In this document: positions 25,092 through 48,800 of the stretch, in pieces
Numbering within the stretch: the stretch's first letter is position 1
Layout: each line of letters starts with the position of its first letter
Origin: Hexactinellida sp. DTS-2022
Taxonomy: Eukaryota > Porifera > Hexactinellida
Direction: 5' to 3'
NCBI GenBank assembly: GCA_028753945.1
Contig: JAPNXP010000016.1
Span: 2,140,001 to 2,204,000 of the forward strand
Length of the DNA stretch: 64,000 nucleotides
The notes under the pieces: generated by a model
Told to the model about the DNA's origin: nothing
Database searches by the model: none
What the model saw: only the letters and a program-made list of their open reading frames with translations
Program-made: the position numbers and the translations under genes

Positions 25092-28000
25092 CTACTTGTC
25101 TATGAGTTTATAAGATATGAGAACATATTTATTATTAGCATATTCTAACCAAGAGCTACCAAGTTCTAATCTTGTTGATAAACCAGGGTACTTCGCTTCA
25201 AACTGCTTCAGGTATCTTAGATTATTATCAAACTTGACATTATGTCTGTTAAGATTCACATCCCATCCTTTGAAATTTGGTCTCATTTTGAAATAGCCTG
25301 GGAACATCAAGTGTAGGTAGTAGAGAATCAAAAGCGTTGAAATAAAGTTTTGCAATTCTTCATATATTTTTATCCCCAAAGATTTTGCACCCTTGTCGTC
25401 CAATTCTTTATTTATAATCTCTGAAATTGAAAAGTTGTTCGTTGAAATGGTTAAGTCTAAATCGTGTAAGTCCCAATACTCTTTACTGAAACTAAGTATT
25501 ACCAAATTTTCAAGTATTTCTTCCAATGGCTTACGTCTCTCTCTCAGTATTGTGATAGATTTTTCGAAACTGTGCAGTATCTCTTTATTAGAAGTATTGG
25601 GAATTAAGTCAATATCATTTCTTTTCTTGTATCTGACGCTTGATAAGGTTCCTTTCTTAGATTTTGTTGATTTTCTTTTAGGAGTATAGCTAGGAGATGT
25701 AGGGGATGTAGGGGTATAGCTAGGAGATGTAGGGGTATAGCTAGGAGATGTAGGGGTATAGCTAGGAGATGTAGGGGTATAGCTAGGAGATGTAGGGGTA
25801 TAGCTAGGAGATGTAGGGGTATAGCTAGGAGATGTAGAGGTATAGCTAGGAGATGTAGGGGTATAGCTAGGAGATGTAGGGGTATAGCTAGGAGATGTAG
25901 GGGTATAGCTAGGAGATGTAGGGGTATAGCTAGGAGATGTAGGGGTATAGCTAGGAGATGTAGAGGTATAGCTAGGAGATGTAGAGGTATAGCTAGGAGA
26001 TGTAGGGGTATAGCTAGGAGATGTAGGGGTATAGCTAGGAGATGTAGGGGTATAGCTAGGAGATGTAGGGGTATAGCTAGGAGATGTAGGGGTATAGCTA
26101 GGAGATGTAGGGGTATAGCTAGGAGATGTAGGGGTATAGCTAGGAGATGTAGGGGTATAGCTAGGAGATGTAGGGGTATAGCTAGGAGATGTAGGGGTAT
26201 AGCTAGGAGATGTAGGGGTATAGCTAGGAGATGTAGGGGTATAGCTAGGAGATGTAGGGGTATAGCTAGGAGATGTAGGGGTATAGCTAGGAGATGTAGG
26301 GGTATAGCTAGGAGATGTAGAGGTATAGCTAGGAGATGTAGGGGTATAGCTAGGAGATGTAGGGGTATAGCTAGGAGATGTAGGGGTATAGCTAGGAGAT
26401 GTAGGGGTATAGCTAGGAGATGTAGGGGTATAGCTAGGAGATGTAGGGGTATAGCTAGGAGATGTAGGGGTATAGCTAGGAGATGTAGGGGTATAGCTAG
26501 GAGATGTAGGGGTATAGCTAGGAGATGTAGGGGTATAGCTAGGAGATGTAGGGGTATAGCTAGGAGATGTAGAGGTATAGCTAGGAGATGTAGAGGTATA
26601 GCTAGGAGATGTAGGGGTATAGCTAGGAGATGTAGGGGTATAGCTAGGAGATGTAGGGGTATAGCTAGGAGATGTAGGGGTATAGCTAGGAGATGTAGGG
26701 GTATAGCTAGGAGATGTAGGGGTATAGCTAGGAGATGTAGGGGTATAGCTAGGAGATGTAGAGGTATAGCTAGGAGATGTAGGGGTATAGCTAGGAGATG
26801 TAGGGGTATAGCTAGGAGATGTAGGGGTATAGCTAGGAGATGTAGGGGTATAGCTAGGAGATGTAGGGGTATAGCTAGGAGATGTAGGGGTATAGCTAGG
26901 AGATGTAGGGGTATAGCTAGGAGATGTAGGGGTATAGCTAGGAGATGTAGGGGTATAGCTAGGAGATGTAGGGGTATAGCTAGGAGATGTAGGGGTATAG
27001 CTAGGAGATGTAGGGGTATAGCTAGGAGATGTAGGGGTATAGCTAGGAGATGTAGGGGTATAGCTAGGAGATGTAGAGGTATAGCTAGGGGATGTAGGGG
27101 TATAGCTAGGAGATGTAGGGGTATAGCTAGGAGATGTAGGGGTATAGCTAGGAGATGTAGGGGTATAGCTAGGAGATGTAGGGGTATAGCTAGGAGATGT
27201 AGGGGTATAGCTAGGAGATGTAGAGGTATAGCTAGGAGATGTAGAGGTATAGTTAGGAGATGTAGAGGTATAGCTAGGAGATGTAGGGGTATAGCTAGGA
27301 GCTGTAGGGGTATAGCTAGGAGATGTAGAGGTATAGCTAGGGGATGTAGGGGTATAGCTAGGAGATGTAGGGGTATAGCTAGGAGATGTAGGGGTATAGC
27401 TAGGGGATGTAGGGGTATAGCTAGGAGATGTAGGGGTATAGCTAGGAGATGTAGGGGTATAGCTAGGAGATGTAGGGGTATAGCTAGGAGATGTAGGGGT
27501 ATAGCTAGGGGATGTAGGGGTATAGCTAGGAGATGTAGGGGTATAGCTAGGAGATGTAGGGGTATAGCTAGGAGATGTAGGGGTATAGCTAGGAGATGTA
27601 GGGGTATAGCTAGGAGATGTAGGAGTATAGCTAGGAGATGTAGGGGTATAGCTAGGAGATGTAGGGGTATAGCTAGGAGATGTAGGGGTATAACTAGGAG
27701 ATGTAGGGGTATAGCTAGGAGATGTAGGGGTATAACTAGGAGATGTAGGGGTATAACTAGGAGATGTAGGGGTATAGCTAGGAGATGTAGGGGTATAGCT
27801 AGGAGATGTAGGGGTATAGCTAGGAGATGTAGGGGTATAGCTAGGGGATGTAGGGGTATAGCTAGGAGATGTAGGGGTATAGCTAGGAGATGTAGAGGTA
27901 TAGCTAGGAGATGTAGGGGTATAACTAGGAGATGTAGGGGTATAGCTAGGAGATGTAGGGGTATAGCTAGGAGATGTAGAGGTATAGCTAGGAGATGTAG

Positions 28001-45860: not shown

Positions 45861-48800
45861 CTGTTCCTTTGCTATGTCCAGTGCTCGCTCCAGGCTGACT
45901 ATACTGTTAGACCCTTTAGCCTCGTTATACGCCTCCTGAAACAGCTGCTCTCCAGGGGACAGCTGTTCCTCCTCTTCCGCCCCATACTCCCAGCCCATGT
46001 AGGAGAGAATGTCCACATCCTCTGTCGTCACCAGCTCCTCGATGCTGGGGCCCTTCTCCTTACCGAACACCTCTCCTTTCTCGCGCTTCTCAACAGCTAC
46101 GAAGCTGGTGTACTAAATAGAAATCCCATATGCATACAACACAGTTTATCGAAAATGTTAGGTTGAAACGAATATTCGAATATTTTTTTGTTTTGATGAC
46201 ACAGAATTAAATAAATTCAACACTGAAAATATAGTGGAAAATAATATGTTGTTAATGTAACAAGATTTTGCAAAGTGTATTAGACACAAGTTAGCTGTTA
46301 GTCAGTTAGGTAAGGTAGGGATTTATACTATTTACGATCTCTCCACTCTATACAAAAATAATGTTGTTATCCGTAGTAGTAAACGAATACTCTAATACTA
46401 TTCGGTATATTTATTTCAGCCCTAGAAATATACATACGCTTTTATTGAATCCCAATGGCCCATGAGACACAATGTTCAAATCAACTTGTTATATTTCTCA
46501 CAATAATCTAGCCTTACAGTGTGTAATATTACCTGTGTCACGATACAGTATTTCTTTGACATTTCAATGACTTTAGGTTTCCGCTCCCTTCGCTTCAGTT
46601 CATCCTGGATAGGGTCTCCTTCTAGGTGTCCCTCTAGCGAATCTCTGATAACTGCTTTAGCTGTCAGTCTCCCAAGGGTTACTCCCTTGGTAACAGAGAG
46701 ATCTGAACAGAAGACAACAGTCTCCAGCTGTTTCCCCCCCAGACTAGCTCTCAGCACTGCCTGTCGACAGTTAGCTGCGAAACCGTACACCACGAGTCTG
46801 TTCCCGTGAAACACCGGTCCGAGCTGTAGCGGCGCCCACACAGGAGTCTCGGGTTTGTAGCTACCGTCCTGACCAATGGAATGCGATAAATATACGTACA
46901 TCAGACTGAGTGGATATTTAGTTTCTCACAAAAAGCGAACAATTGTCCAAGGAATTATCCAGGAGCGCGAGACGCTCTTATGGGAGTATTGTTTTTGGAA
47001 ATTTTAATTAGAAGCGCGAACATTTGGAATCTTCTCCTATAGCGTAACATTAATTTGTTATTTAGGTGTATGGAAATTGGATCAGACCAGGATTAGGAGC
47101 GTATTTACAAATGGCTGTTAATACACTGCAATTGTCTTACATCGTATTGCTTCCATTCCACTTCAATGCCTCCAAGAGCTGGTTGAAACGCCCTGTTGAT
47201 TTGTCTGTTAACTTTCCCTTCCCACTTAGACTTAGCAGAAGTGTCGAAGCTCTCAGAGCATCCCAGGCCCGTCCTACTCATTCTGTTCATCAGATGTTTG
47301 TTCAGCGCCGCTCCCACTCCCAGCGTGAACACTCGGCTGTGCCGACTTATGTCTTGGATTTTGTTCAGAACCGTGTGTTCCTATAAACCGATTTATCAAG
47401 TTAGTGGTGTAACTGGTGTTCGCCTAATAGCAATATTGCTTTATTAGCAATTTTTTCAGTCCCCAAGCGAGCATTTAACGTTAATTTATGTTCCTTTAAT
47501 TGCAAGTTCGCTTTAGCAAGCAAATTTCATGCAAAATGCAACTTGCAATTTACGAACACAACTGTAGTTATGTATACAGTCAAGTCTGTTTATTATGTAC
47601 AAATTTTCGTCTGCTTAGTATAAATTTTTATTATTATGAACAAGCCCTATGGTCCCAATTTTTATTAATTTGAATTCCATTATTATGAGTCTCTATTACG
47701 AACTATGTTTGTCCCTACAATATCCATAACAATACCCTGACTGTACTACCCTACTCAGGTGGGGCACAGACTATTAAACTGGGGCATGCTCAAATTAAGG
47801 TGGGCATAGGCCCTACCCTGTATATCCTACCTGCGTGACGTGTCCGTCTGAAATGAGGAACAGACTCCTGTTGGGGATGAGGGCCCCGCTGCTACTCCCC
47901 CTATATAGCAGCTCCACTGCCTGGAATAGTTTCCATAGGTTGGTGCTGCCCATATCAGCAGTGACTAGCTGCACCCAGCTGCTAGCCTGCTTAAGACTGT
48001 CCTTAGTCAGATTCTGAGAGTAGGGAAACAGCTCTTCCCAACCGCTACCGAACTTTATTATGTTGAAGCGACAGTTGTTGGGGAGGTGGTGTAATGCCAG
48101 CAGCAGAACCTGTAAAGGGATTATATTTAAGCTACCTTGTACTATGTAGACGGTCTATAATACCCATATAAACTAAAGCTAAAATTTGTAGACAAAAACC
48201 CCCTGCCGTCTATGGGTAATTACGACTATTTAAGTCAAGAAAACCTGGGCTAAAATCTAAGTTAATTCATATATTATTAACCTTTCACTTAGAAACATAT
48301 TTTTACTCGTTTTATTTAAACCTGAAGTTAAAGGGGTTAATTTTATTTCTCCAGAAACAATATTAGCTGAATTGATAACTTATTTCATTTCTTATGACAC
48401 GATTTGTTTGCTAAGCATACCTTTTTGGCGCTTGAGAACGTATCTCCCTCATGCATAGAGTGAGAGCAGTCAAGAAGAAATAGAATCTCCGCGTAGGGAG
48501 ACTCGTCCACTTCGAACTCCGGATAGAAAGTCAGCATGCACGCCTCGGTCCCGTCCTCTGCCTGCTCCACCCACATACGCGGCACGTGTGCGTGCGAGAG
48601 CACCACCTGCAGATGGAATCCGTCCTTCCCTAGACTCTGTCCTCTGAACATCTCGAGGACTGCTTTCGTCTGAGTTTTCTTTATCATAAGGCTGTGACTA
48701 CTGCAGTTTATAGCTTGGATGTCAAATGGCATCTCGATCTTCAACTGAAGAGATACATAATTTGTATTAATTACAAAATTCAGCATACTTTCGTTAATAC

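Follow-up and report, generated by a model that had tools for sequence, protein, structure and literature searches.

A glass sponge PARP4 gene followed by five candidate alternative last exons that pair host-protein fragments with a vault-docking domain

Vaults have been known since the 1980s, and the parts of PMC2964712 and PMC13100048 that deal with their function still call it unclear. Appendages related to 14-3-3, actin and ubiquitin were already noted on PARP4-like proteins in 2014, in the section of PMC4245714 on these proteins, and exon 30, the vertebrate counterpart of the linker discussed below, is under recurrent positive selection and has been proposed to be a host-pathogen interface (PMC4038475). 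Here we describe a PARP4 (vault PARP) locus of the glass sponge Hexactinellida sp. DTS-2022, contained in a 64,000-nucleotide stretch (the window) of contig JAPNXP010000016.1 (GenBank assembly GCA_028753945.1, positions 2,140,001 to 2,204,000), in which nine constant exons are followed on the same strand by five large open exons, A to E, that each end in a vault-docking domain. We predict with considerable confidence that one donor, that of exon 9, is joined to any of the five last exons.

The nine constant exons, on the minus strand and all with GT-AG boundaries, join in frame into a protein of 1,293 residues that ends in DIAKEQ, and this joining agrees with the phase-0 end at 45861, after DIAKEQ, that the preliminary description of this locus had given for the ninth exon. 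BRCT, PARP catalytic and VIT domains are found in the constant exons by Pfam in the order that is the PARP4 pattern. The vWA region is assigned by homology only, since the joined constant protein aligns to PARP4 proteins that have a Pfam vWA match; exon 5 scanned alone with Pfam gave no match. Among the matches, the closest PARP4 is that of Oopsacas minuta (77% identity, 59% of the query covered), and the protein predicted for Oopsacas continues past the same core residues, AKEQ, into an A-type end with a 14-3-3 fragment. The constant exons are as follows (P numbers here and below denote sequences compared with the locus).

51926..53023, minus strand: constant exon 1, with the start ATG, BRCT and the beginning of the PARP regulatory part (frame, GT donor; Pfam BRCT_2 1.8e-9)
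50846..51555, minus strand: constant exon 2, PARP catalytic domain (Pfam PARP 2.1e-27)
49922..50333, minus strand: constant exon 3, VIT domain (Pfam VIT 9.9e-28)
49228..49455, minus strand: constant exon 4 (GT-AG, frame)
48421..48744, minus strand: constant exon 5, end of VIT and, by homology, beginning of vWA (GT-AG, frame; joined protein aligns to P0001)
47831..48109, minus strand: constant exon 6, vWA by homology (GT-AG, frame; joined protein aligns to P0001)
47141..47380, minus strand: constant exon 7, vWA by homology (GT-AG, frame)
46533..46868, minus strand: constant exon 8 (GT-AG, frame)
45861..46112, minus strand: constant exon 9, terminal DIAKEQ and phase-0 donor (frame; the Oopsacas protein likewise continues after AKEQ)

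By eye, a sequence containing GCAAGTT and words like GCGAGCATTTAATGTT recurs in the introns of this part at about 51860-51600, 50660-50600 and 47560-47440 on the minus strand, and may be a small mobile element.

The five same-strand open exons that had been placed at acceptors 44983, 41264, 38740, 35300 and 32297 are borne out by their open reading frames (ORFs), each of which begins in phase 0 and has a single stop. Several same-phase acceptors thus lie behind one donor and every exon has its own stop, which is the layout of alternative last exons.

41681..44983, minus strand: last exon A, of the same type as the end predicted for Oopsacas (ORF of 1,100 residues and stop)
39159..41264, minus strand: last exon B (ORF of 701 residues and stop)
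35717..38740, minus strand: last exon C (ORF of 1,007 residues and stop)
32550..35300, minus strand: last exon D (ORF of 916 residues and stop)
25092..32297, minus strand: last exon E (ORF of 2,401 residues and stop; first methionine at codon 2331)

The domain that ends each exon had been matched earlier to the PARP4 C terminus that binds major vault protein (MVP), and comparison by hhalign with vertebrate PARP4 C termini upholds this homology, both for the domain of the A to D type (94.7%, E 5.7e-8) and for that of exon E (96.6%, E 7e-10); another segment of vertebrate PARP4, used as a control, gave 0.1%. Profiles were compared because a direct PDB search with the vault domain was weak, a PARP4 chain appearing at E 0.24 behind an unrelated ABC transporter at 0.0099, the latter probably by chance. 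An NCBIfam scan of exons A to D returned no family. In the 112.4 Mb genome (18 contigs) the domain has five matches, which is a lower bound, and every one of them lies inside the window. Exons A to D share near-identical first parts (in exon A the first 120 bases only) and near-identical last parts; exon E has neither and is more distantly related than A to D.

41684..42106, minus strand: vault-docking (MVP-ID/INT) domain of exon A, start approximate (genome search, hhalign)
39162..39590, minus strand: vault-docking domain of exon B, start approximate (genome search, hhalign)
35720..36139, minus strand: vault-docking domain of exon C, start approximate (genome search, hhalign, PDB search)
32553..32975, minus strand: vault-docking domain of exon D, start approximate (genome search, hhalign)
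25131..25427, minus strand: vault-docking domain of exon E, diverged (38% identity, E 5.3e-19; hhalign 96.6% to vertebrate PARP4)

Between the acceptor and the vault-docking domain, each exon holds recognizable pieces of other proteins. The preliminary description spoke of different payloads, which is right as far as it goes, although it leaves out that the payloads are pieces of conserved cell proteins drawn from a set that recurs.

44600..44725, minus strand: 14-3-3 C-terminal fragment, exon A residues 87-128 (Pfam 14-3-3 2.4e-4, below cut-off; PDB phmmer 1.8e-7)
40758..40979, minus strand: actin N-terminal fragment, approximately actin 4-77, exon B (Pfam 2.9e-13; PDB 2.2e-27)
39615..39794, minus strand: R-SNARE (synaptobrevin) motif without membrane anchor, exon B (Pfam Synaptobrevin 9.5e-8, profile positions 6-65 of 89)
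38234..38455, minus strand: actin N-terminal fragment, exon C (Pfam 9.6e-13; PDB 9.9e-28)
38105..38134, minus strand: ribosomal P-stalk-tail-like motif DDDDFGMSLF, exon C, with a second copy at 37949-37978 (pattern)
34794..35015, minus strand: actin N-terminal fragment, exon D (Pfam 7.2e-13; PDB 1.6e-27)
34536..34571, minus strand: weak EF-hand-like loop DTDGGG, exon D (pattern only, without a Pfam match)
33012..33050, minus strand: actin C-terminal peptide (LDSGPSIVHRKVF), exon D (second, sub-threshold HMMER domain)
25700..32123, minus strand: about 306 heptads resembling the C-terminal domain (CTD) of RNA polymerase II (Pol II), 263 of them SPSYTPT, exon E (21-bp tandem array, 97% matches)

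The exon D peptide corresponds to the last actin residues, GPSIVHRKVF, and its core PSIVHRK is kept in P0148, P0152, P0158 and P0161. A Pfam scan gave no ribosomal-stalk match for the stalk-tail-like motif of exon C, and a closer form of the tail, DDDMGFGLF, occurs by pattern in P0168 and P0169. SPSYTPT departs from the Pol II CTD consensus by a single conservative change. The common 5' end of the last exons resembles, by eye, a 14-3-3 helix (NPxRLxLSL). An AlphaFold model of exon B is poor (mean predicted local distance difference test score, pLDDT, 42.5), with the actin piece modelled as coil at 25-38 and the vault domain likewise low at 34-52. Fusion of gene models was rejected as a source of the fragments because those in the window lie in single uninterrupted exons.

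Fragments of the same kinds occupy the same position in PARP4 proteins of other species. We examined 146 homologues, taken from 57 found in one search and the best 120 of 930 in another; they were picked by closeness to a sponge, which leaves vertebrates under-sampled, and counts among them are not independent because many come from one and the same species as isoforms or paralogues. What follows the vWA region was cut out and searched for eight elements (five reference sequences and three patterns), with E-values that are lenient because they were computed for 146 sequences. At least one element was found in 77 of the 112 non-vertebrate linkers and in 2 of the 34 vertebrate linkers, both of the latter being stalk-tail patterns, and the control PARP4 cores gave 0/146 for the reference sequences and 0/108 for the patterns. 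Among the 112 non-vertebrates the actin N-terminal fragment was the commonest element (35), followed by ubiquitin (27), 14-3-3 and the stalk tail (15 each), Pol II heptads (12), calmodulin-like pieces (6), SNARE (5) and the actin C terminus (1). Going by the first alignment per protein, weak and poorly aligned matches are those of P0125 (14-3-3), P0123, P0127 and P0098 (ubiquitin) and P0007 (SNARE).

Pfam scans of individual linkers show how the set varies. The linker of Dictyostelium purpureum matches 14-3-3 (2.2e-12) and the ribosomal stalk (4e-11), with weak heptads (E 2e-4), and that of Capsaspora matches 14-3-3 (2.2e-12), actin (1.3e-9) and the stalk (0.0023, below cut-off). Ubiquitin, actin and synaptobrevin are found in Dysidea; the substrate-binding part of HSP70, actin and SNARE in Crassostrea; 14-3-3, actin and WH2 in Oscarella; ESCRT-III and EF hands in Mytilus; and PDZ in amphioxus. 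No extra domain above cut-off was returned for Sycon, Patiria, Lineus or Patella (P0029, P0072, P0097, P0085). Because many animals and some amoebae bear such fragments at this place, the glass sponge array looks more like a spread-out form of an old PARP4 property than like a general cargo system. Side by side with these matches we note that two Mytilus galloprovincialis proteins, P0132 and P0133, have an identical 712-residue core and linkers that differ mainly by a 148-residue calmodulin-like cassette, a pair which suggests that exon choice occurs in the PARP4 linker elsewhere too. In Dysidea avara, P0003 and P0058, which lie on contigs of equal length, have nearly identical cores (1,128 of 1,206 residues) and linkers with actin and SNARE in the one and ESCRT-III in the other. 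The ubiquitin fragments keep the terminal GG in 20 of 27 cases, 10 of these having proline next, and their position 63 is usually not lysine.

The actin fragments indicate what is being kept. Actin itself is conserved along its whole length, whereas across the 35 fragments identity to actin is 95% at residues 38-54, the region of the D-loop, 72% at 19-37, 48% at 55-75 and 45% at 10-18, the nucleotide loop. With the D-loop kept and the flanks decayed, selection therefore appears to maintain one surface, and the combination of an intact D-loop, an altered nucleotide loop and absence of the remaining actin is a sequence trait of the decoy type. We consider it likely that the payloads are under selection for resemblance to host surfaces.

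The comparison with PARP4 loci of related species that had been proposed earlier recovers the same kind of array on related sponge contigs. Searching ENA contigs with the exon C vault domain, we obtained 24 ORFs of 601-1,067 residues, all with the vault domain; they are too short to hold core plus tail, and 6 of the 10 contigs, equal length being taken to mean one contig, have three or four each. Most sort into the window types by motif, namely 14-3-3 (A), SNARE (B), stalk tail (C) and actin C-terminal peptide (D). Ten of the 24 were scanned with Pfam, and among the weak matches are 14-3-3 in P0157 (0.021) and the SNARE of the exon B orthologues, which is weaker than in the window (P0156 5.7e-7; P0154 3.8e-5, below cut-off). 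Payloads score 233-292 bits between exon C and P0147, 194-196 for D and P0148, 129-139 for B and P0154 and 77-137 for A and P0149, compared with at most 23 bits between different types within the window. Across the window and species labels s1, s2 and s3, payloads of type C score 50-292 bits with one another, those of D 33-196 and those of B 62-139. Contigs were assigned to these labels by length and, in the case of 258265 with 443390 and of 785562 with 171930, by vault-domain similarity, which makes those joins partly circular; twelve further rows are pooled as s4plus.

The vault domains behave differently from the payloads. Their identity is 93-96% within the window versus 76-90% to s1-s3, and over 345 bases none of about 60 fourfold sites differs in any of the six pairs among A to D, with identity in the flanks falling to 0.06-0.60 per bin. 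A maximum-likelihood tree clusters these domains by species label with the minimum of 5 changes, support for s1 being only 85/62, and the approximately unbiased (AU) test, which covered types A, C and D, rejects clades by type (A p 2e-5, C p 3.7e-6, D p 3.2e-5). Recent duplication with payload swap was rejected as the whole story because the payloads correspond across species and the vault domains are young. Third-position GC is 0.66-0.73 in the common ends and 0.25-0.31 in the payloads, as expected from GC-biased conversion, although a value of 0.59 is seen in the constant exons as well. On these comparisons the array is judged to be old, with ends that evolve in concert, and gene conversion of the ends together with lasting difference of the payloads is the simplest account.

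Taken together, we give a probability of roughly 50% to the reading of the locus as a whole as an exon-choice array of vault-docked mimics, which are probably baits. According to this account, a single enzyme part (BRCT-PARP-VIT-vWA) would be spliced to one of five last exons to give alternative proteins from one PARP4 gene, the last exons differing in the linker that they contribute but agreeing in the kind of vault-docking tail. On display in the linkers would be a 14-3-3 C terminus, the actin D-loop segment, an actin C-terminal peptide, an R-SNARE motif, a stalk-tail-like motif and Pol II CTD-like heptads, and an attacker or exploiter of the real actin, 14-3-3, SNARE and so on would bind the bait, be drawn to the vault and be ADP-ribosylated. 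Alternatively, an attacker might trigger the system by cutting the linker, thereby freeing the enzyme. Gene conversion would hold the ends uniform and selection would hold the payloads different. An immune bait function of the payloads falls somewhat short of even odds in our judgement. More tentative still is the wider proposal that vaults are intracellular traps with exchangeable baits, that the linkers of PARP4 do in animals and amoebae what integrated decoys do in plants, and that gene conversion keeps the ends of the glass sponge array uniform so that any bait fits enzyme and cage. This proposal pictures the linkers as unfolded facsimiles of attacked surfaces strung between the modifying enzyme and the vault wall, possibly serving as a tripwire.

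Several observations weigh against this account. Of the 112 non-vertebrate linkers, 35 have none of the eight elements and 23 of those are at least 300 residues long, although P0020 and P0132, counted among the linkers with none, have HSP70 or Snf7 matches in precomputed lists. Exon E is without the common 5' part, and its heptads form a 97% uniform minisatellite with mostly T where the CTD has S, which means that they may be inflated repeat DNA. The common 5' parts of B to D differ at 5-8 of about 100 fourfold sites and are less uniform than the vault domains. Beyond P0149, the A payloads match at 0-27 bits, so that assignment to type A relies on the 14-3-3 motif. Payload matches across types also occur outside the window and imply that some exchange of payloads has taken place: the end of P0152 (D type, contig 443390) resembles the SNARE-like region of P0154 (B type, contig 258265) at 73 bits, P0157 (A) and P0158 (D) score 60-73 bits together, and P0160 and P0164 of s4plus, labelled A, score 82-96 bits with the C-type P0159. 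In addition, the host-activator table of PMC4512716 contains nothing that corresponds to the stalk tail, heptads, SNARE, HSP70 or ESCRT pieces, and the small GTPases and cyclophilin of that table are without a counterpart in the homologues' Pfam lists, among the matches listed.

Of the alternatives, the one that survives best, which we regard as a real but lesser possibility, is that the payloads are working adaptors that recruit the normal partners of actin, 14-3-3, the stalk, SNAREs and Pol II into vaults, with exon choice tuning the partners and no pathogen involved. The parts that are kept, such as the actin D-loop and the stalk tail, are known interaction surfaces. Moreover, the appended 14-3-3, actin and ubiquitin-related domains were taken in the PARP4 section of PMC4245714 as ties to signalling, the cytoskeleton and ubiquitination, and the vaults of Dictyostelium discoideum, according to the relevant part of PMC13100048, contain 80S ribosomes and label ribosomal proteins, an observation with which a stalk-tail ligand would agree well. 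The set is, however, heterogeneous and varies between lineages (ubiquitin, HSP70, PDZ, ESCRT-III, EF hands), a better fit to arms races than to one housekeeping task, and the positive selection on the vertebrate linker (PMC4038475) likewise argues against adaptors. We favour baits because, of the 26 entries that PMC4512716 tabulates as host activators of bacterial effectors, 17 are ubiquitin, 14-3-3, calmodulin or actin (one actin entry is question-marked), and because TEP1 in vaults is reported, in the part of PMC13174449 that treats it, to be a TIR-like NADase with a proposed immune role.

A second alternative, which we consider improbable, concerns exon choice itself and holds that A ends PARP4 and that B to E are separate tandem genes, each having a promoter and a short first exon of its own. 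The stops of A (+257), B (+210), C (+206) and E (+140) do have a poly-A signal (AATAAA or ATTAAA) behind them, and such exons stand as separate ORFs in the records of other species. An in-frame ATG is possible upstream of A and D, where a separate start is conceivable, and no AATAAA or ATTAAA signal follows exon D; both points count against exon choice. The distances from each stop to the following acceptor, however, are just 416, 418, 416 and 252 bp, 3' untranslated region included, and therefore leave little space for a promoter, first exon and intron. The first in-exon methionine is at codon 103 in A, 138 in B, C and D and 2331 in E, and since that of exon E falls within the vault domain, this exon needs a 5' exon; upstream of the acceptors of B, C and E there is no in-frame ATG. 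The earlier statement that no last exon has a convincing start accordingly stands for B, C and E, whereas A and D have the possible upstream ATG just mentioned. All five exons begin in phase 0. Furthermore, A, B and C have in common the 20 bases next to the acceptor and a branch-point-like CTAAC just beyond, after which the likeness soon stops and the intron differs; between A and B about 40 bases are common and the next 20 are at 0.75 identity. Tandem genes are disfavoured on spacing, starts and phase, and the exon choice that the preliminary description inferred is strongly favoured over them by these features, by the genome search, a lower bound, that placed every match to the domain at this locus, by the predicted Oopsacas junction and by the related arrays, all of it from genomic sequence. 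An assembly artefact was rejected because contigs of other sponges hold such exons together.

Very unlikely is chance capture, in which fragments of the abundant mRNAs of actin, ubiquitin, 14-3-3, calmodulin and HSP70 would have been inserted into a tolerant, disordered linker to drift there, the array being a remnant of duplication whose reading frames stay open through selection on the vault domain alone; it could explain the 14-3-3, actin and ubiquitin pieces, which speaks against baits, and agrees with the minisatellite nature of the exon E repeat, but it does not fit an actin D-loop 95% kept between flanks of 45-72% in 35 homologues, the occurrence of similar fragments in Dictyostelium purpureum as well as in sponges and molluscs, or payloads that retain their own fragment combinations across glass sponges.

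Elsewhere in the window we observe a cation efflux transporter of the SLC30 type with a long histidine-rich loop (21478-23232, minus strand; Pfam 1.9e-41), a 208-residue ORF with no Pfam match at 0.001 (23634-24257, minus strand) and a C-terminal exon of a group 1 glycosyltransferase (20505-21071, plus strand; Pfam), which looks like PIG-A.

Should PARP4 carry, at its vault anchor, copies of host surfaces that selection has kept, vaults would have a function open to experiment, namely the capture or sensing of proteins that interact with actin, 14-3-3, ubiquitin, SNAREs, the stalk or Pol II, and there would be a possible reason for the positive selection in the vertebrate linker. Because the baits are sorted into exons at the glass sponge locus, the question can be tested bait by bait. 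The preliminary description knew of no such arrangement, and in the top-ranked open-licence literature we likewise found no alternative-last-exon PARP4 array, no account of the recurrent set as mimics or decoys, of D-loop-specific conservation or of concerted ends, and no description of P-stalk, Pol II or SNARE pieces in PARP4.

The integrated decoys of plant nucleotide-binding leucine-rich repeat proteins likewise have pieces of attacker-targeted host proteins built into another protein. The glass sponge system differs from them in belonging to the animal and amoeba side, and in using a vault-docked ADP-ribosyltransferase with several short fragments per protein as putative baits. The insect genes lola and mod(mdg4) similarly combine a constant 5' part with alternative last exons; their variable exons, however, encode zinc fingers of transcription factors, whereas those of the glass sponge encode vault tails and host-protein fragments and have conversion-homogenized ends. 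Vertebrate PARP4 exon 30, too, is a large, single-exon, disordered and fast-evolving linker ahead of the MVP-binding domain, but it is one exon, present in every isoform found by PMC4038475, unlike the five alternative exons described here. The PARP4 proteins of other animals and amoebae treated in PMC4245714 are alike in their core, in their vault-docking C terminus and in the fragments of the same proteins between the two; that section is without the P-stalk tail, the Pol II heptads, the R-SNARE and the reading as mimicry, in which the present account differs. In those proteins the fragments lie in one continuous linker, whereas in the glass sponge they are divided over alternative last exons with homogenized ends. 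At this locus a known gene family takes on a new architecture, and the bait reading, if true, would make it more than that.

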